Shown here: positions 6,672 through 47,542 of the stretch, piece after piece
Layout of the letters: the number at the start of each line of letters is the position of its first letter
How positions within the stretch are numbered: the stretch's first letter is position 1
NCBI GenBank assembly: GCA_024655905.1
Contig: JANLFP010000003.1
Coordinates: 248,001-312,000 of the forward strand
DNA length: 64,000 nucleotides
Direction: 5' to 3'
From: Tepidanaerobacteraceae bacterium
GTDB lineage: Bacteria; Bacillota; Thermosediminibacteria; Thermosediminibacterales; Tepidanaerobacteraceae
Translations under genes and position numbers: made by a program
Notes under the pieces: generated by a model
The model's database searches: none
Told to the model about the DNA's origin: nothing
What the model saw: the letters and a program-made list of their open reading frames with translations, nothing else

Positions 6672-6895
6672 ACAAAAAAAACTCGCCCCTGAAGGGACGA
6701 GGTATTCTCGCGGTACCACCCTGGTTGAGCATAGCTCCACCTCATTTTGATAACGGTATAACATCCGGCCTGGCCTACTCGATAACCTTTCAACCCACAG
6801 CTCGGGAGCGGCCCGAAGTCTTCCACCTGCCGGCTTTCACCCTTCCCGGCTCTCTTTGAGGCTTTGCGACTCCTTCTTCTCCGTCATGGCTTTTG
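6672..6895 (-). promoter_or_regulatory. T-box leader (complete) upstream of the aminotransferase
   Basis: On the minus strand the leader runs from about 6895. It has AGAGAG and GGTG segments in Stem I, an exact T-box motif (AGGGTGGTACCGCG, 6720-6707), and a terminator (CTCGTCCCTTCAGGGGCGAG followed by a T-run near 6679-6672). T-box leaders bind an uncharged tRNA and then favour antitermination. The specifier codon cannot be assigned safely: GAC (Asp) and TTC (Phe) both sit in the candidate loop (GGAAGACTTCGGGCC, near 6815). Either would suit an aminotransferase. Confidence 0.88.
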
Positions 6896-6982
6896 ATAAT
6901 CTTTGATTTGCTATTGTGTTATTTAAAATATCATTTTATTTTTGAAATGTCAAGTATGAATTTTAATTTTAAACCTGTACTC

Positions 6983-24342: not shown

Positions 24343-24374
24343 TATAAAAACAAAAGAAAATCGAATATGGGCAA

Positions 24375-24483
24375 CCTTTAAACTGGTCCCGCGAGGCCGG
24401 TAAGGGAAGAAGCAGTCAGCTTTGGGCACGCAAGGTTTCATGCGACCGCAAGCCTTTCTCCGCCTCGGAGAAAGGCTTTTTTG
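24375..24483 (+). promoter_or_regulatory. PyrR-dependent attenuator of the pyr operon
   Basis: The binding-loop hairpin (24375-24406) contains GGTCCCGCGAGGCC, matching the PyrR consensus ARUCCNGNGAGGYU except at its paired ends. It is closed by CCTT/AAGG arms. A strong terminator (AAGCCTTTCTCC/GGAGAAAGGCTT plus T-run, 24450-24482) follows. In the known mechanism, UMP-loaded PyrR holds the hairpin and lets the terminator form. No pyrR gene is present in the window, so it lies elsewhere. Confidence 0.9.
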
Positions 24484-24566
24484 ATGCATAAGACAGCATC
24501 AGGCGTGCCGGGTTTGAAATAGACCAGAGCTGCCGGAAGCTTTGCAGCCAAGATGAATAATCCCCT

Positions 24567-40139: not shown

Positions 40140-40265
40140 GAGCGGAAAAAGTTTTTTTGAGTGGAAAAATTTTTTTGGGCAAAAGTTTTAAGATAGTGGA
40201 ACAAAAGAAGGAAAATCAAAAAGTGTGTCGAATATTATATCTAAAATCGAATAATTAAAATCAAA

Positions 40266-40350
40266 CGATAAAGGCAAACCCACCGAAAGGCGGGGGCGCA
40301 AAGCTGCGGGCCTAAAGTCGATAAGACTATGGCAGCCGGGTTGCCGAATC
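40266..40350 (+). promoter_or_regulatory. Cyclic-di-GMP class I riboswitch, copy 1
   Basis: The GEMM-I aptamer: GGCAAACC, a GAAA tetraloop (CACCGAAAGGCGG), GGGGCGCAAAGC, then CGGGCCTAAAG, and the second-arm ATGGCAGCCGGGTTGCC. The tetraloop-receptor contact and the G of the ligand pocket are in place. It is followed 30 bases later by a terminator, so it probably controls transcript elongation. Confidence 0.93.
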
Positions 40351-40379
40351 TTTATGTTTTATGCTTATGAATTGGACAG

Positions 40380-40421
40380 GCCCCTCCGGCAGCATCGGCA
40401 GGGGCTTATTTAATTGCTTTT
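40380..40421 (+). terminator. Terminator between the two class I riboswitches
   Basis: Arms GCCCCT/AGGGGC with an inner CCG/CGG pair and a T-rich tail (TTATTTAATTGCTTTT). The loop-side CGGCAG can pair with TTGCCG at the end of the first aptamer, a possible antiterminator, so ligand binding may favour termination (inference). Confidence 0.7.
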
Positions 40422-40453
40422 AGAATTGTTTTTTGCGGTTGATGTCTTCCTTT

Positions 40454-40536
40454 CGATAAAGGCAAACCCGCCGAAAGGCGGGGGCGCAAAGCCACGGGTC
40501 TAAAGCAGGATGCAATGACGGCCGGGCTGCCGAAAA
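40454..40536 (+). promoter_or_regulatory. Cyclic-di-GMP class I riboswitch, copy 2
   Basis: The same GEMM-I aptamer signature as copy 1: GGCAAACC, CGCCGAAAGGCGG, GGGGCGCAAAGC, and ATGACGGCCGGGCTGCC. It ends only about 15 bases before the ATG at 40552. The GGGGG binding site directly follows the aptamer, so this copy could act on translation rather than termination. Confidence 0.93.
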
Positions 40537-40551
40537 AGGGGGTCTTAAAAA

Positions 40552-41391
40552 ATGAAAAAGAGCCCGAAAGGGATTTTCCCCGTGCTGCTCGCTTGTTTGA
40601 TTTTTCTCAACCAGAGCACAGCTTTTGCCGCCGGCAGCGAATACATAGAAAAAAACGGCGTTGCCCTTCTTAAGCCGCCATCGGAGGTTTGCGGCAAGGT
40701 GCGCATCGCCGGGAGCACCTCGAAGGCAAAGATAAAACTCATGGTAAATAAAGGGGACAGCCGTACATGGTACGATGTTTCCCTGAACAACGGTGAATTT
40801 GACACCGAGCTTTGGCTGGTGCAGGGAGAAGGGCGCTATACCGTGTCTGTAATGGTGCATGAATACGACAGGAAATACAGCTACGGTCCCACAGTAACCG
40901 TAAACAATACTGAAGAAGTGGACAGGTTCTCGGTGCCCACAAAGGAAGTGGAAAGCGATGCTCCAGAAATCGTCGCGCTGGCGGGAAAGCTCGCACAAGA
41001 CAAAAAGACCGACATGGAAAAAATGAGGGCAATCTATGACTGGATCGTGAAAAACATCGATTATGATTATGAAAAATACGCAAAGCACCGCAGCGGAGAT
41101 TATGACAATACTTACGGTGCATTGAACACCCTCAGGACAAAAAAGGGCGTGTGTTATGACTATGCGGCTCTGGCGGCGGCTTTGGGCAGAGCCGCCGGGG
41201 TCAGGGTAAAGCTGGTGAAAGGGGAAGGCAAAATGGGCACATTTGAAGGCCTTCATGCATGGAACGAATTCTACAGCTCCGAAGAACAAAGGTGGGTCTG
41301 CATGGATGCGACCTTCGGAGCTATAGGGCAGGAAGCGTACTTCGACAACAAAGACTTCGAGGATACCCACAAAAAGATTGATGAATATTGA
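40552..41391 (+). CDS. Exported transglutaminase-like protein
   Basis: A 279-residue protein with a Sec signal peptide (residues 1-28, ending TAFAAG). The N-terminal part (about 30-125) is a beta-sandwich-like segment. A transglutaminase/protease-like domain follows with the Cys-His-Asp triad: KKGVCYDYAALAAALGRAAG (Cys), GLHAWNEF (His), and RWVCMDATFG (Asp). Bacterial members cleave or cross-link wall peptides or surface proteins; which applies here is unknown. It is the gene directly controlled by the tandem class I c-di-GMP riboswitches. A small stretch after the stop leads to the sigma-A promoter of the next unit. Confidence 0.88.
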   Translation: MKKSPKGIFPVLLACLIFLNQSTAFAAGSEYIEKNGVALLKPPSEVCGKVRIAGSTSKAKIKLMVNKGDSRTWYDVSLNNGEFDTELWLVQGEGRYTVSVMVHEYDRKYSYGPTVTVNNTEEVDRFSVPTKEVESDAPEIVALAGKLAQDKKTDMEKMRAIYDWIVKNIDYDYEKYAKHRSGDYDNTYGALNTLRTKKGVCYDYAALAAALGRAAGVRVKLVKGEGKMGTFEGLHAWNEFYSSEEQRWVCMDATFGAIGQEAYFDNKDFEDTHKKIDEY

Positions 41392-41421: not shown

Positions 41422-41450
41422 TTGACAGCCAGCAAAACGTATGCTATAAT
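41422..41450 (+). promoter_or_regulatory. Consensus sigma-A promoter of the sipW operon
   Basis: Exact TTGACA, a 17-base spacer and exact TATAAT, an unusually strong promoter. Transcription would start about 15 bases before the first class II riboswitch, so control must occur after initiation. Confidence 0.92.
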
Positions 41451-41475
41451 CTTACTCACAAGAGAAATATTTACA

Positions 41476-41550
41476 TTTGGGTGACGATGCGGTATGTTCT
41501 TAAAGATGGGCACCTGGAACATACTGAGTCAGTGGTGCAACCGACCCAAT
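41476..41550 (+). promoter_or_regulatory. Cyclic-di-GMP class II riboswitch, copy 1
   Basis: It contains the class II signatures GGGCACCTGG and GTCAGTGGTGCAACCGACC. The GCACC/GGTGC pseudoknot pairs across the P2 stem (TATGTTC/GAACATA). P1 is TTGGGT (41477-41482) with ACCCAA (41544-41549). The right P1 strand is also the left arm of the terminator that follows, so ligand binding should prevent termination (an ON switch). The assignment is from memory of the Clostridium acetobutylicum aptamer. Confidence 0.9.
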
Positions 41551-41585
41551 CTATTTCCGAAGATAGATTGGGTTAAATTATTTTT
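41544..41585 (+). terminator. Riboswitch-controlled terminator, copy 1
   Basis: Perfect eleven-base arms ACCCAATCTAT/ATAGATTGGGT (41544-41554 and 41563-41573), then AAATTATTTTT. It shares bases with P1 of the riboswitch, so the two structures exclude one another. Confidence 0.88.
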
Positions 41586-41683
41586 CGAAGAAAAAATTTT
41601 ATGTTGCCGCCTGTTCCGAATTTTTTTTTCAAAAATAGCATAGTATTGAAAAGTGATGAATATGATATCGATATAATGGTTTT

Positions 41684-41758
41684 CGAGGGAGATAATGACG
41701 CTTGTTCCGTATTTGGGGCACCTGGGGGCAAGCCGAGTCAGTGGTGCAACCGACCCTA
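41684..41758 (+). promoter_or_regulatory. Cyclic-di-GMP class II riboswitch, copy 2
   Basis: The same signatures as copy 1: GGGGCACCTGG and GTCAGTGGTGCAACCGACC. Here P2 is GCTTG/CAAGC, different in sequence from copy 1 but again complementary, which supports the fold by covariation. It is followed by its own terminator. Confidence 0.9.
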
Positions 41759-41781
41759 TCTTTTCTAAGATGGGGTTTTTT
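41753..41781 (+). terminator. Riboswitch-controlled terminator, copy 2
   Basis: Arms ACCCTATCTT/AAGATGGGGT (one T-G pair) with loop TTCT and a T-run. The left arm overlaps the aptamer's right P1 strand. Confidence 0.86.
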
Positions 41782-41882: not shown

Positions 41883-42476
41883 ATGAAGACCGCATTAAAA
41901 TGGTTAAACAGCATATTGACGGTTGTGCTTCTGCTAATGGTCGCATGCTCCTTTTTTCTGATATACCAGTCCAGGATGGAACCCAACAGGGCGGCTTCCA
42001 TCATGGGCTATAAACCCCTCACGGTGCTTTCCGGCAGCATGAGCCCCTTCCTGGAGCCCGGTGACATGATAGTGGTTCACCGGGTAGATCCGGCAAGCAT
42101 AAAGGTGGGCGATGTTATAACGTTCCGTGTGGATGACCGGACCCTGGTCACCCATCGCGTGGCGGAAGTCATACCGCAGGACGGGCGCATGGCTTTCAGG
42201 ACGAAAGGTGACGCCAACAACACCGAAGATATAGATTTGGTGACCCAGGACAGGGTTGTGGGCTCCATGGCATTCAAAATACCTTATGCGGGGTACATAG
42301 GCAGGTTTGCCAGAACGCCAAAAGGATTCGTGGCGATGATAGTTTTCCCCGGAGTGCTGCTAATCGCCGGAGAGATAAAAAACATACTGAACGAGCTGTC
42401 GAAAGAACAAAAACAAAGAAAGGCCCATGACTCAGACCCGGAGCAGGACTCCTCGGGAGATGACATGAAAGCATAG
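41883..42476 (+). CDS. sipW: Signal peptidase I, SipW (ER) type
   Basis: A 197-residue type I signal peptidase of the SipW/archaeal class. The catalytic serine is in TVLSGSMSPFLEPGDMIVV and a histidine replaces the usual lysine (TLVTHRVAEV). Hydrophobic segments at both ends anchor it (ILTVVLLLMVACSFFLIY; GFVAMIVFPGVLLIAG). SipW enzymes process biofilm proteins of the TasA family, two of which follow directly. AAGGAGG precedes the ATG. It is the first gene under the tandem class II riboswitches. Confidence 0.95.
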   Translation: MKTALKWLNSILTVVLLLMVACSFFLIYQSRMEPNRAASIMGYKPLTVLSGSMSPFLEPGDMIVVHRVDPASIKVGDVITFRVDDRTLVTHRVAEVIPQDGRMAFRTKGDANNTEDIDLVTQDRVVGSMAFKIPYAGYIGRFARTPKGFVAMIVFPGVLLIAGEIKNILNELSKEQKQRKAHDSDPEQDSSGDDMKA

Positions 42477-42685: not shown

Positions 42686-43204
42686 ATGAGAAGAAACATC
42701 ATCATCAGTTTGGTGCTCATCGGATTGCTTGCATTTGGAATCGGCTTCGGCACATTTGCATACTTCACCAGCCAGGCGACAAGCCAGAACAATACCTTTA
42801 CTGCCGGCACCCTTACAATCGACAGCCCGGGGCAATTGACAGCAAGCCTAGCTGTAGGAAACATTTATCCAGGCTGGACTACCAGCAAGACCATAACCGT
42901 TCACAACTCGGGTTCCCTCGACTTCAAATACAGAATCAGCGTGCAGCCCCTTGCCGGAAACATGCTCTATGACGGTGCCACGCCCCTTCAGGTCAGCATA
43001 AACGGAGGAGCGTACACCAATATCAATTCCCTGGGATATGTGGAATTGGGCAATATAGCCGCTGGGCAGGACGGCACTTTCACGATAGCGTTCAAGCTGC
43101 CCGAAGCCGCAGACAATTCTTATCAGGGCGCTTCAGGAACATTCACATTCGTGTTTGACGCCACTCAGACGTCAAATCCCGGCTATTCTGAGGCCGGCCA
43201 GTAA
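42686..43204 (+). CDS. TasA/camelysin-family fibre protein
   Basis: A 172-residue secreted protein. The N-terminal signal peptide ends in the SipW-type junction FGTFAYFTSQATSQ, followed by NTFTAGTLTID, which is the hallmark of TasA/CalY proteins. The mature part is a beta-sandwich (VHNSGSLDFKYRISVQPL, FTFVFDAT). In Bacillus, such proteins form surface fibres in the biofilm matrix. The site TAGGAGG lies ahead of the ATG. It is probably the major subunit because it is the shortest and simplest of the cluster. Confidence 0.93.
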   Translation: MRRNIIISLVLIGLLAFGIGFGTFAYFTSQATSQNNTFTAGTLTIDSPGQLTASLAVGNIYPGWTTSKTITVHNSGSLDFKYRISVQPLAGNMLYDGATPLQVSINGGAYTNINSLGYVELGNIAAGQDGTFTIAFKLPEAADNSYQGASGTFTFVFDATQTSNPGYSEAGQ

Positions 43205-43317: not shown

Positions 43318-44286
43318 ATGAATAAAAAGCTCATAGTGGGAATACTGGCCGTGACCCTCGTGTGTGCCTTTGCGGGTGCTGGTACCATGGCGTATTTTAC
43401 CAGCCGCGCAACCAGCGAAGCGAACACCTTTGTAGCAGGCACCCTGGTGCTGGGCGGAGTAATAGACGGCTCCGACGTGGCCAATCGCTTTGCCACATTG
43501 AATATGGCAAATCTGAAACCCGGCGACCCCGTTCATCTGGGTTCTACCCTGCTAAAAAATGTGGGAACACTTCCCTTTAAGCTGTACCGCATGACCGCGT
43601 CCAATATAGTTGACGCTTCGGGGTTGGACGGCGTGCTTACGCTTAATGTGACAATAGGCGGGGAGCAGGTGTTTTCCGGGAAATTAAGCCAGCTGGTGCA
43701 GGAAAACGGAGGTTACTTCGATCCCATTTACAACGTCCAGCCCGGTGAGGAAAAGGCCATGGACCTTTATGTCATGATGGATGCCGCAGCCGGCAACGCC
43801 TATCAGGGCAAATCAATGACCTGCGACCTCACCGTATATGCGGCACAGAATGAAATGCCATCAAACGGCGAACCCCAGGGAAGCCAGGTAAATCTTGGCA
43901 CGGCTCCCGGTGGAAGGCCAACCTTCTCCGTAGCGGGCTACAATACCCCGAGCCAGGTGTGTTTTGACTGGAACTGGGACCCGGAAGATGCGGGATACGA
44001 GTATTATAAGCTGGAAATAAAACATGAGACCGGGACTCCGACGACCACTATCGAAGAAGAAAGGATGGTCATAATCATATTGCCGATTACCAGGGAGATC
44101 GTGGTTTCGGGAGACGGCATAGATGGAAACGATGTAAATGTCGACTGGAACGGTGATGTGGTGAAAATTGATAAGTCCGCGTTCCCCAGCGACTGGACCG
44201 GATTTGAGGTAAGACTTTCCGGGAAGCAGCGCTTAACGGGCACGGTAAAATCCATACCCTATCAGTGGTGGTCCCTTAACAGATAA
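43318..44286 (+). CDS. Second TasA/camelysin-like protein with C-terminal extension
   Basis: A 322-residue protein. It has the same N-terminal pattern as the previous gene: a hydrophobic signal ending in GAGTMAYFTSRATSEANTFV, then AGTLVLGGVIDG. A TasA-like beta-sandwich covers about residues 30-190. The additional 130 residues (from QVNLGTAPGGRPTF) form a beta-rich domain I do not recognise, containing DWNWDPEDAGYEYYKLEI and a DGNDVNVDWNGDVV stretch. It may be an accessory or cap subunit. AAGGAGGG lies ahead of ATG 43318; the frame is open upstream but no site supports it. A terminator follows. Confidence 0.9.
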   Translation: MNKKLIVGILAVTLVCAFAGAGTMAYFTSRATSEANTFVAGTLVLGGVIDGSDVANRFATLNMANLKPGDPVHLGSTLLKNVGTLPFKLYRMTASNIVDASGLDGVLTLNVTIGGEQVFSGKLSQLVQENGGYFDPIYNVQPGEEKAMDLYVMMDAAAGNAYQGKSMTCDLTVYAAQNEMPSNGEPQGSQVNLGTAPGGRPTFSVAGYNTPSQVCFDWNWDPEDAGYEYYKLEIKHETGTPTTTIEEERMVIIILPITREIVVSGDGIDGNDVNVDWNGDVVKIDKSAFPSDWTGFEVRLSGKQRLTGTVKSIPYQWWSLNR

Positions 44287-44538: not shown

Positions 44539-45747
44539 ATGAGGAATTTGAAGCGAAGAAACAAGATGAAATCGGGTATGTTGCTCATGGCGGCCATCTT
44601 TATATTCATTTCGACTTTTTGGGGAGCCGCCGCGTCGCTCGCGACCAACGCCGATCCGGATGTGACGCTGGATGTATCCGGGCAGGGTTCCAGCGGCGGA
44701 GCCATGTTCGGGAACGGGATCTGGGCTCCCGGGGCAAGCCGGGCGGGCACCATCAGGCTTTACAATAATCATTCCGAAAGGGTGCGCGTGAACAGCTTCG
44801 GCATTTCCATGAAGCTGGAAAGGACTCTTGGCGGAGAGCCTGAAGCCATAGCTCCGCACAGCGGCTTATACGAATCTTTTGCAAAAAGCATGAAGCTTAC
44901 CATAAAAAAAGGCAGGCTACTGGTATTTTCGGATACAGTCTTTGAAGGCAGCTTTTTTGAACTGCTCTATGGCAGCGGGGATGAAACTTACCGGGGATAT
45001 GCCCTGCCGCAGGGCGATGGGTTCAATATTGATGAAGGCGGCTCTGCAGATTTGGAATATGCGGTGCGCATGGATGAGCGGGCAGGCAACGACATGCAGG
45101 GATTGAAAGCAACCGTGGCGTTCCTTGTAAACATGGATGAAAATCCCGTACCCGAGCATAGAGACAGGAACAACAACAATCAGTTGGTGGAAGAACCGCT
45201 GGAGGAGTATCCCGACATCGGCGGCCACTGGGCCCACGATTGCATAGTTGCACTGCTGCAGCACGGAATAATCCACGGTTATCCCGACGGCACGATAAGG
45301 CCTGACAACTACATCACCAGGGCCGAAGCCGCAGTTCTTGCGGCGAACGCACTCAATCTGGGCGAGACGGCGGGCGCGCCCTCATATGCAGATGCTATTC
45401 TCCCATGGGCTCAGGGATACATATTGTCGACTACCGGCAAGGGCATATTCGAAGGCTATCCCGGAAACGTGTTCAAACCCGAAAATTATATTACGAGGGA
45501 AGAAATGGCCGCGGCCCTGATGCGCGCTTTCGGCAAAAAAGCGCAAGAGGATGTGCGGCTTGCATTCAGGGATAAGGACGATATAGGCGCATGGGCGGCG
45601 GAATATGTTAAGGCGGGCATATACAACGATATTATAACTGGCTATCCTGACAATACCTTCAAGCCAAAAGCCCAGGTCACTAGGGCCGAAGCATTTACCA
45701 TGATATGCAAATTGCTGGGTTATCACGCAGAACATGCCAAGCAGTGA
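44539..45747 (+). CDS. SLH-domain anchor protein of the fibre cluster
   Basis: About 403 residues with an N-terminal signal segment (KSGMLLMAAIFIFISTFW), a beta-sandwich middle part (about 40-220, GIWAPGASRAGTIRLYNNHS), and three SLH domains at the C-terminus (near 223-275, 290-340, 350-400). Their signatures include DIGGHWAHDCIVALLQHGII and ITRAEAAVLAANAL. The middle part looks like a distant TasA-type sandwich (inference), so this protein could fasten the fibres to the wall. The start is uncertain: ATG 44539 touches GGGGGG and TTG 44548 has better spacing. It lies between a terminator and the coiled-coil gene, 40 bases away. Confidence 0.85.
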   Translation: MRNLKRRNKMKSGMLLMAAIFIFISTFWGAAASLATNADPDVTLDVSGQGSSGGAMFGNGIWAPGASRAGTIRLYNNHSERVRVNSFGISMKLERTLGGEPEAIAPHSGLYESFAKSMKLTIKKGRLLVFSDTVFEGSFFELLYGSGDETYRGYALPQGDGFNIDEGGSADLEYAVRMDERAGNDMQGLKATVAFLVNMDENPVPEHRDRNNNNQLVEEPLEEYPDIGGHWAHDCIVALLQHGIIHGYPDGTIRPDNYITRAEAAVLAANALNLGETAGAPSYADAILPWAQGYILSTTGKGIFEGYPGNVFKPENYITREEMAAALMRAFGKKAQEDVRLAFRDKDDIGAWAAEYVKAGIYNDIITGYPDNTFKPKAQVTRAEAFTMICKLLGYHAEHAKQ

Positions 45748-45787: not shown

Positions 45788-47542
45788 TTGGGACATAAGG
45801 CAAAAGTCATAAAGGGCATCCTTTTTAAAGCAGCAGGCTTTTTTCTGGCAGGGGTGCTCGTGAGCATGGCCCTGCTTACCGATACCAGCACCCTTGCATG
45901 GTTTTCTTCCAGGGTCGCCGGCAGCATTCAGGTCCAGGCGGCTTCCGGCGAAGACATCATCGAAGATTTTTATACGCTCAGCGGCGGCTCCAGGAGCAGC
46001 CGGAACCCGGACACCATTGTGGTGAAAAAGGCTCCGAACATGAAGGGAAATATGATAGTATATTTTTCCCTGGATGAAAAAATTTCCGGCAAAAATTCCG
46101 GGCACGGCCTGGCAGGCTACATGCTGCACTTGAATCCGATTGAAATAAAGGATAACGGCCAAGGCGAATTTCGCGCGCAGATTGAAATGAAATTCAACTG
46201 GAGGGATCTGGTTTACCTCTGGGACAATTTCGACAAGACCGAGTCGGGGACGCTGACACTCCGCTATCTAAACGGCTTCGTCATAAAAGAATATCCGGTG
46301 ACTTTTGACAACGGCTATCTTTGGAGCCGCGCCGTAGCTTCTCTGACGGGTATGCCGGACATGAAGTATGCGAAAAAGAATAAGGACGACCTCGAAAACC
46401 AGATGAATGCATACATAGCACAAATAATAGCCGATCTGGCCCAGAGCGTCCACTGGAACCAAATTATTTCATCGGGAAGGACGGCGCTCTTTAGTGCATC
46501 CATTATGGCTTATGACGATAAAACAGCGCCAGAACAGGCATCAGACCAGTTAAAAACCGGCTCTGTAACGACCGCCGCCATGGCCCGCGCAAGGATGAAC
46601 GGTGTTGTAAACCCCTTCGAAAGAATTCAGCTGACCGGAGAGCAGCAATCCATAGTCGACATAGTGGCGCCGGGGCTTACGGCATATATCGAAAATATCT
46701 ACAATTTCGTCGAGGAACTCATAGCACGGCTCAACGAAAAGATGGCAGAAATTGATAAGCTCAATCTTGCAATCGATGGCATGAATGCGCAGATACAGGG
46801 GCTCAACGCCGCCATAGACGATTTGACTCAAAAATACACCGCCCTTGAACAGGAAAAGGCTGCACTGCTGGAAGAAAAAATGAATCTTGAGCAGGATAAT
46901 ATGAAACTGAAGGCTAAAATCGACGACCTGAAGGATGAGATAGACAGCCTCATTGAAAAAAATGCCGGATTGAAAGATGAAATTAAGGATTTGGAGTTGA
47001 GAAATACTTCTCTTGAGCAGGAAATCCAGAAAATGAAAGACGAAAACGATAACCTGCGAAAAGAAATTGAAAACCTGAAACATTCTTCTATATCCGGCGG
47101 ATCCGGAAATACGTCTTCTGGAGGATCAGGGGCCCCTTCGGATGAGATTGAGCCTCCGGCGGGAACACAACCCCCATCTGCAGAACCGCCTGATGGAGGG
47201 TTTGGAGATACGGGCACAGTGCAGCCGCCGACGCAGGAAGCCGGGGAACAACCCCCGGCTGGGCAGGAACCCGCGGTAGAAGAGCCCGGGGCACCATCAT
47301 CAGGCGGAAAGCAACCGGTCGGAAATTCCACCCAGCAAGATTCTCCTTCTGCAAAATCGCAGGACGGCCTAGGAAATGAAGATTCCATAGACAGCGCAAA
47401 CCCGTCTGGTGGAGAAGGGCCATCGCTGCAGCAGGGCGCATCAGGCGCAGATTCACAAAAAGAACAGGCCGGTGCAGCGGCGTCGCAGGAAAACCAGCCT
47501 TCGACACAGCAGGATGGCCAGGATGTGCTGATAGCTCCATAA
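45788..47542 (+). CDS. Secreted coiled-coil protein of the fibre cluster
   Basis: 584 residues from TTG 45788 (GGAGG lies 9 bases ahead; the nearby ATG runs into a stop). A signal segment ends in the SipW-like junction STLAWFSSRVAGSIQVQAAS. A globular domain covers about 50-300. A long heptad coiled coil (about 304-435) follows, with repeats such as EEKMNLEQDNMKLKAKIDDL. A low-complexity Gly/Pro/Ser/Gln tail (about 436-584) ends the protein. The junction suggests it is processed by SipW like the TasA-like proteins. The tail and coiled coil fit a long spacer or adhesin stalk. No SLH or sortase motif is seen. Confidence 0.82.
   Translation: MGHKAKVIKGILFKAAGFFLAGVLVSMALLTDTSTLAWFSSRVAGSIQVQAASGEDIIEDFYTLSGGSRSSRNPDTIVVKKAPNMKGNMIVYFSLDEKISGKNSGHGLAGYMLHLNPIEIKDNGQGEFRAQIEMKFNWRDLVYLWDNFDKTESGTLTLRYLNGFVIKEYPVTFDNGYLWSRAVASLTGMPDMKYAKKNKDDLENQMNAYIAQIIADLAQSVHWNQIISSGRTALFSASIMAYDDKTAPEQASDQLKTGSVTTAAMARARMNGVVNPFERIQLTGEQQSIVDIVAPGLTAYIENIYNFVEELIARLNEKMAEIDKLNLAIDGMNAQIQGLNAAIDDLTQKYTALEQEKAALLEEKMNLEQDNMKLKAKIDDLKDEIDSLIEKNAGLKDEIKDLELRNTSLEQEIQKMKDENDNLRKEIENLKHSSISGGSGNTSSGGSGAPSDEIEPPAGTQPPSAEPPDGGFGDTGTVQPPTQEAGEQPPAGQEPAVEEPGAPSSGGKQPVGNSTQQDSPSAKSQDGLGNEDSIDSANPSGGEGPSLQQGASGADSQKEQAGAAASQENQPSTQQDGQDVLIAP

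Follow-up and report, generated by a model that had tools for sequence, protein, structure and literature searches.

In the 64,000-nucleotide stretch of DNA analysed here (the window), a gene for an exported transglutaminase-like protein is preceded by two class I cyclic-di-GMP (c-di-GMP) aptamers and followed by two class II c-di-GMP aptamers, which in turn lie in front of genes for a SipW-like signal peptidase, TasA/camelysin-like surface proteins and an S-layer-homology protein. We consider it probable that the class I pair represses the enzyme at two levels of expression and that the class II pair opens the surface operon. The transcription-then-translation layout that the initial annotation had proposed for the class I pair agrees with Rfam matches, with folding and with the arrangement in relatives, although the computed change in access to the ribosome binding site (RBS) is small.

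Four aptamers around an exported enzyme gene

Both class I aptamers claimed upstream of the gene were matched over their full length in an Rfam search. The distal aptamer (copy 1, 40264–40349, + strand) scored 84.5 bits with RF01051 and 72.7 bits (E 2.6e-15) with RF03167, and the proximal aptamer (copy 2, 40452–40535, +) scored 87.8 bits and 81.6 bits (E 7.7e-18) with the same two models, RF01051 covering positions 1–87 in each copy. The GAAA loop, the GCGCAAAGC core and the CCGGG..TGCC arm are present as had been described.

The gene that follows (40552–41391, +) encodes a protein of 279 aa which, as claimed, is transglutaminase-like (PF01841, E 9.8e-23) and predicted to be exported. In the structure model, an N-terminal helix resembling a signal peptide is followed by a beta domain and a transglutaminase fold, and the profile match together with the residues C201, H235 and D252 as the Cys-His-Asp triad places the protein in the Transglutaminase-like superfamily. 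C201 and H235 are invariant in both alignments, while D252 is invariant in that of 8 sequences and nearly invariant in that of 14. The best structural match of the model in the PDB is S. pyogenes TglA (Z 16.9, rmsd 2.0, 136 residues aligned), other matches being the putative cysteine protease 3isr (Z 13.1) and the BTLCP-type protease LapG (Z 11.6), the latter level with animal and human transglutaminases. Because LapG and the human transglutaminases tie, the modelled fold does not tell a protease from a cross-linker and fits either alike.

Beyond the enzyme gene, we found a putative sigma-70-type promoter (TTGACA-17-TATAAT, 41422–41450, +; 12/12 matches, the second hexamer being preceded by TG) and two class II aptamers which were absent from the initial annotation. 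Both exceed the RF01786 cut-off of 53.5 (aptamer 1, 41471–41554, +, 66.2 bits, E 1.3e-12; aptamer 2, 41679–41764, +, 57.3 bits, E 4.5e-10), and the genome (3.2 Mb) has no other class II match. Aptamer 1 shares its 3′ P1 strand with a terminator-like hairpin of 14 pairs and an imperfect U-tract (41543–41574, +, z −5.64), and aptamer 2 shares its own with a terminator of 11 pairs followed by a U-tract (41752–41777, +, z −5.16). Both hairpins are stable and take the 3′ P1 strand as their 5′ arm, so that the class II pair is arranged, on sequence, like an ON switch.

The genes downstream of the class II pair, which we infer to form one operon, are all on the + strand and begin with a SipW-like signal peptidase I (41883–42476; TIGR02228 127 bits, cut-off 51.85; NF046067 150.6, under its cut-off of 190). 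Two SipW-dependent TasA/camelysin-like surface proteins follow (42686–43204, PF12389 E 1.9e-13, and 43318–44286, PF12389 E 4.1e-10). In both, the signal peptide and the domain looked for in SipW-dependent matrix proteins are found, at scores over the cut-offs of TIGR04088 and PF12389; in the profile search neither reached the TasA equivalog cut-off of 450. An S-layer-homology surface protein (44563–45747, PF00395 E 1.1e-40) precedes a predicted coiled-coil protein (45788–47542), an open frame with only coiled-coil-type matches, below cut-offs, which may be the end of the operon.

Direction of the class I switches

In order to compare the leader with those of related genes, class I aptamers were sought up to 1300 nt upstream of the best 80 of 312 Bacillota relatives of the enzyme. 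An aptamer was present at 46 of these loci and two or three at 26 of the 46, not counting a minus-strand match (L104) and a match cut by a contig end (L135). A relative from another genus, G002, matches the window in the order of its genes and aptamers, and served as an orthologous leader for folding.

The initial annotation had placed a terminator after copy 1. A stable hairpin does lie at 40378–40407 (+; −18.6 kcal/mol, z −3.16), its energy being matched by 0 of 200 shuffles, but its stem is bulged, its U-tract is interrupted (CUUAUUUAAUU) and it was not listed by a consensus terminator scan of the window. The orthologous hairpin of G002 carries a clean U6 tract. The pairing of TTGCCG (40341–40346) with CGGCAG (40387–40392), which had been suggested as the basis of an OFF switch, can form and gains five more pairs on folding, so that strand GCCGGGUUGCCG of copy 1 pairs with CGGCAGCAUCGGC of the hairpin over 11 pairs in the window and 10 in G002. 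The 5′ strand of this candidate antiterminator (GCCGGGTTGCCG, 40335–40346, +) lies inside copy 1 and its 3′ strand (CGGCAGCATCGGC) at 40387–40399 (+). The antiterminator is in the minimum-energy fold, in the window as in G002, when the transcript stops before the hairpin is complete (near 40400 in the window), and antiterminator and aptamer are mutually exclusive. A duplex as good was reached by 20 of 500 shuffled hairpins in the window and by 68 of 500 in G002. When full-length leaders were folded, aptamer plus terminator was 1.8 kcal/mol more stable than the antiterminator in the window (−53.8 versus −52.0) and 4.4 kcal/mol less stable in G002 (−61.5 versus −65.9), and since these energies are close in one leader and opposed in the other, ligand binding could decide between the two states. 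The OFF direction read from this pairing is plausible, as antiterminator and aptamer compete and the two states lie within 2 kcal/mol in the window; folding of copy 1 gives moderate support for OFF, which the predicted energetics mildly favour. The distal unit would, on these folds, have both its own terminator and a competing antiterminator, as expected of the first unit of a bi-mechanism tandem.

The layout of other Bacillota, with P1 running straight into the terminator stem, was rejected for copy 1, where the flank duplex is weak (only −2.0 kcal/mol, rank 0.81) and the terminator is detached instead. Upstream of copy 1, the sigma-H-like promoter motif AGGAAAA-N14-GAAT (40209–40233, +) was found in the window and in G002 and was absent from a second relative, G001, in a pattern search of the three.

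Distal aptamers were compared as a set of 26, made up of those of the window, G002 and 24 of the 26 multi-aptamer loci from the best 80 of 312 relatives (L134 and L137 were left out). A U-run within 16 nt follows 25 of these 26 aptamers, versus 5 of 78 upstream stretches, and composition shuffles gave 0.43; given this value and a U-run also at 23 of 48 proximal copies, we rejected the U-run as proof of distal termination and take it as suggestive only. Of 24 distal copies tested for a duplex from flank to U-run, 13 reached −7 kcal/mol. A terminator between aptamers was found at 2 of the 26 multi-aptamer loci (L137 and L145) by a finder which is partly blind, missing stems that enclose the aptamer.

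Copy 2 abuts the RBS, as the initial annotation had stated: 16 nt lie between the end of the aptamer and the ATG at 40552, and the RBS GGGGG (40538–40542, +) is directly 3′ of P1. The same spacing recurs in relatives, as a class I aptamer ends 11–16 nt before the start in 8 of 8 transglutaminase homologues from 22 genomes of the order, and the last aptamer lies 7–15 nt before the chosen start at 39 of the 46 aptamer-bearing Bacillota loci among the best 80 of 312 relatives. A strand upstream of copy 2 (40446–40455, +) is able both to extend P1 and to pair with the RBS, with a flank-RBS duplex of −9.8 kcal/mol in the window. We asked how well such flanks fit their own RBS in a set of 48 proximal aptamers (the window, eight relatives of the order including G001, and the 39 Bacillota loci, the seven with longer leaders being left out), reduced to 47 for the swap and accessibility calculations by leaving out L128, which is short of upstream sequence. 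The mean duplex was −9.75 kcal/mol for a flank with its own RBS region versus −7.05 kcal/mol after swapping, and 0 of 2000 permutations were as low, a count that is not a strict probability, as the aptamers of close relatives are not independent. The window's own pair, at rank 0.26 among swaps, is not outstanding. As a flank fits its own RBS region better than a swapped one, the comparison supports a conserved helix that would cover the RBS when P1 of copy 2 is closed, that is, OFF with ligand.

Computed RBS accessibility averaged 0.31 with P1 allowed and 0.41 with P1 blocked, and was lower with P1 allowed in 29 of 42 proximal sequences, the other 5 of the 47 having been dropped for want of the core motif. 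The corresponding values for the window are 0.34 and 0.41, with 0.31 in two states in which the aptamer was unconstrained. This difference is too small to serve as proof of OFF, and we set the calculation aside for that purpose; for the OFF direction at copy 2, co-variation of the upstream strand with the RBS region holds, while the accessibility difference is small.

The class I pair could instead be an ON switch, in which ligand-bound aptamers would free the RBS and the enzyme and the surface operon would rise together, as would suit a cross-linker; we regard this as unlikely. Left unconstrained, the copy 2 leader to 40545 does fold so that the RBS pairs with the aptamer's 3′ end, which excludes the aptamer, and the enzyme's closest structural match is TglA. 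Class I switches can also be ON, as in Bc2 of B. thuringiensis, both directions being found in V. cholerae (PMC6366702). However, flank-RBS co-variation would be superfluous for an ON hairpin located inside the aptamer, and at copy 1 antiterminator and aptamer cannot coexist.

Less probable still is a plain pseudo-cooperative doublet, in which both copies would act on transcription and copy 2, though near the start codon, would play no part in translation. Doublets of c-di-GMP-I are placed under digital, pseudo-cooperative control in PMC9481103, and at the 23 of 48 proximal aptamers with a U-rich run within 16 nt an extended P1 could also terminate. In the window, however, copy 2 is followed only by AAAAAGGGGGUCUUAAAAAAUG, with no U-tract, and the RBS lies at P1 at 39 of the 46 Bacillota loci and at 8 of 8 in the order.

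In the reading that we prefer, with repression by the class I pair and activation by the class II pair, absence of ligand would leave the 3′ part of copy 1 (GCCGGGUUGCCG) paired with the terminator region, and transcription would continue into the enzyme gene. With c-di-GMP bound, the aptamer of copy 1 would keep this strand, the terminator would form and transcription would stop. In transcripts that pass the terminator, ligand-bound copy 2 would close its P1, extended into the RBS, and translation would be blocked. The separate promoter beyond the enzyme gene would feed both class II aptamers, whose 3′ P1 strands double as 5′ terminator strands, so that c-di-GMP would favour read-through into the SipW/TasA/SLH operon. 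At high c-di-GMP two switches would turn the enzyme off and two would turn the surface operon on.

Ligand class and history of the locus

By E-value the best Rfam family for both class I copies is RF03167, the c-di-GMP-I-GGC variant, whose cut-off of 59 both exceed, but the canonical RF01051 (cut-off 35) gives more bits. The GGC model has the consensus CGCGAAGC, with G at position 47, whereas both window copies read CGCAAAGC, with A at this position, and both carry G at position 20. An A at position 47 was also found in 83 of 83 related class I aptamers with a readable motif (89 examined). Positions 20 and 47 are presumably ligand-contact bases of the class I aptamer, A20 being the base of the c-AMP-GMP type. 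In view of the A at the variant position in both copies and the higher RF01051 score, we rejected the GGC label as misleading and regard both copies as canonical class I aptamers. That the class I ligand is c-AMP-GMP or another dinucleotide is very improbable, since the GGC label and the A20 of 13 of the 89 related aptamers, Geosporobacter orthologues among them, are set against G20 and A47 in both window copies and the better score of the canonical model.

Examples of A20 aptamers are L092:3837-3924, L093:3826-3912, L091:1474-1557, L081:11600-11684 and L003:1501-1585. Four doublets in front of transglutaminase-like genes (L099, L145, L146 and L161) have G at position 20 in the distal and A in the proximal aptamer, and such mixed doublets might, judging from this base, each read two dinucleotides.

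The genome encodes eight GGDEF domains. Further class I aptamers of the same genome lie before chemoreceptor-like genes and a flgB/flgC-like operon (L003, L008 and L009) and before short sigma-factor-like genes (L004, L005 and L006, some of these sites being close to contig ends or masked stretches), all gene names having been assigned by eye. Elsewhere in the window, Rfam matches include a T-box leader (6690–6896, −) and a PyrR binding site (24371–24485, +).

Between the window and G002, identity is 92% for the distal class I copies and 84% for the proximal ones, against 79% for the two copies of the window compared with each other. As orthologous copies are closer than the two copies within one leader, the doublet, judged by these identities, predates the split of the genera and both copies have been kept since. 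The first class II aptamer of G002 is degenerate (35.6 bits); at L080:9058-9149 (minus strand) it is without most of its 5′ half, and the terminator-like hairpin is kept. G001 retains a short remnant of the enzyme gene, and terminator 1 stands there without its aptamer and is followed by copy 2. In the resulting leader (L081:11398-11727, minus strand), which was apparently made by deletion, copy 2 (class I) and a single class II aptamer precede the SipW-like gene.

The order of class I aptamer, enzyme gene and class II aptamer recurs in G002 and in Geosporobacter ferrireducens and G. subterraneus. Both Geosporobacter loci continue with histidine-kinase-like and response-regulator-like genes (named by eye from translations), and in G. 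ferrireducens a SipW-like signal peptidase, also named by eye, is next after the two-component genes in the stretch fetched. At another locus, a class II aptamer (L131:5407-5490) lies about 750 nt after a transglutaminase-like gene for which no class I aptamer was found, and precedes the gene for a protein that looks secreted and carries long Asp-Ala repeats.

Known systems and biological meaning

Tandem c-di-GMP-I aptamers before a transglutaminase-like gene are already known, and the bi-mechanism tandem is already a named class. In a 2025 survey, COG1305 (yebA) transglutaminase-like genes of Bacillota are significant targets of tandem c-di-GMP-I aptamers, 94% of these tandems being doublets and 6% triplets (PMC12452182). 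The locus described here shares with them two class I aptamers in series, a transglutaminase-like gene and a terminator after the first aptamer; the available text of that survey gives counts, without expression platforms for COG1305 genes, and names no class II aptamer after the gene. An earlier study counted 347 class I and 59 class II doublets and defined bi-mechanism tandems; it lists no bi-mechanism cases other than those for SAM and states that tandems were not comprehensively evaluated for dual mechanisms (PMC9481103). The SAM-II/SAM-V tandem of that study resembles our proposal in having a terminator on the first unit and RBS access on the second, with one ligand for both, and differs in that two aptamer classes sense SAM, in place of two class I aptamers predicted to sense c-di-GMP. 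Dual control of transcription and translation has also been described for Bc1, a single class I riboswitch (PMC11218506). In the thuringiensis system, too, whole class I units follow one another on a single leader; three units of similar structure are described there and the available text mentions no class II units (PMC4759541). Searches of the open-licence literature, which leaves most subscription papers outside, turned up neither a gene flanked by pairs of both classes nor a class I doublet of the bi-mechanism kind. The present analysis adds an arrangement of four aptamers from two classes, which is found again in relatives, and a co-variation that links proximal aptamers to the RBS.

The closest precedent for opposite signs is C. 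difficile, where the functional switches are OFF in class I and ON in class II, and where PPEP-1 (zmpI; class I, negative) and its adhesins CD2831 and CD3246 (class II, ON) are regulated oppositely (PMC6366702). The same opposition of classes is predicted here, with a transglutaminase fold in place of a metalloprotease, a SipW/TasA-type operon in place of sortase-anchored adhesins, and doublets of both classes. By this analogy, high c-di-GMP would most likely mean enzyme off and surface operon on, and the combination of the two classes probably constitutes push-pull control. LapG offers a second parallel, being a transglutaminase-like cysteine protease which releases the adhesin LapA (PMC3032545): in both cases an exported enzyme of transglutaminase fold with a Cys-His-Asp triad is expected to be inactive at high c-di-GMP, yet LapG is held back at the protein level by LapD, unlike the control at the RNA level proposed here. 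A fuller version, in which one ligand acts through two copies each of two non-homologous aptamer classes as a push-pull device and the enzyme acts on the fibres of the operon at low c-di-GMP, is one that we put forward tentatively, at clearly lower confidence than the signs of the two pairs.

If the signs are as we infer, one second messenger would act through two unrelated RNA receptors in one place with opposite outputs, and one receptor class would act at two levels of expression. A common orphan enzyme, of the COG1305 type, would then be off while matrix is being made, which would make it likelier to release or remodel matrix than to cross-link it. Should the push-pull reading be true, the locus would be an RNA-level counterpart of LapG/LapA, in a module that recurs outside the family, in two Geosporobacter genomes.
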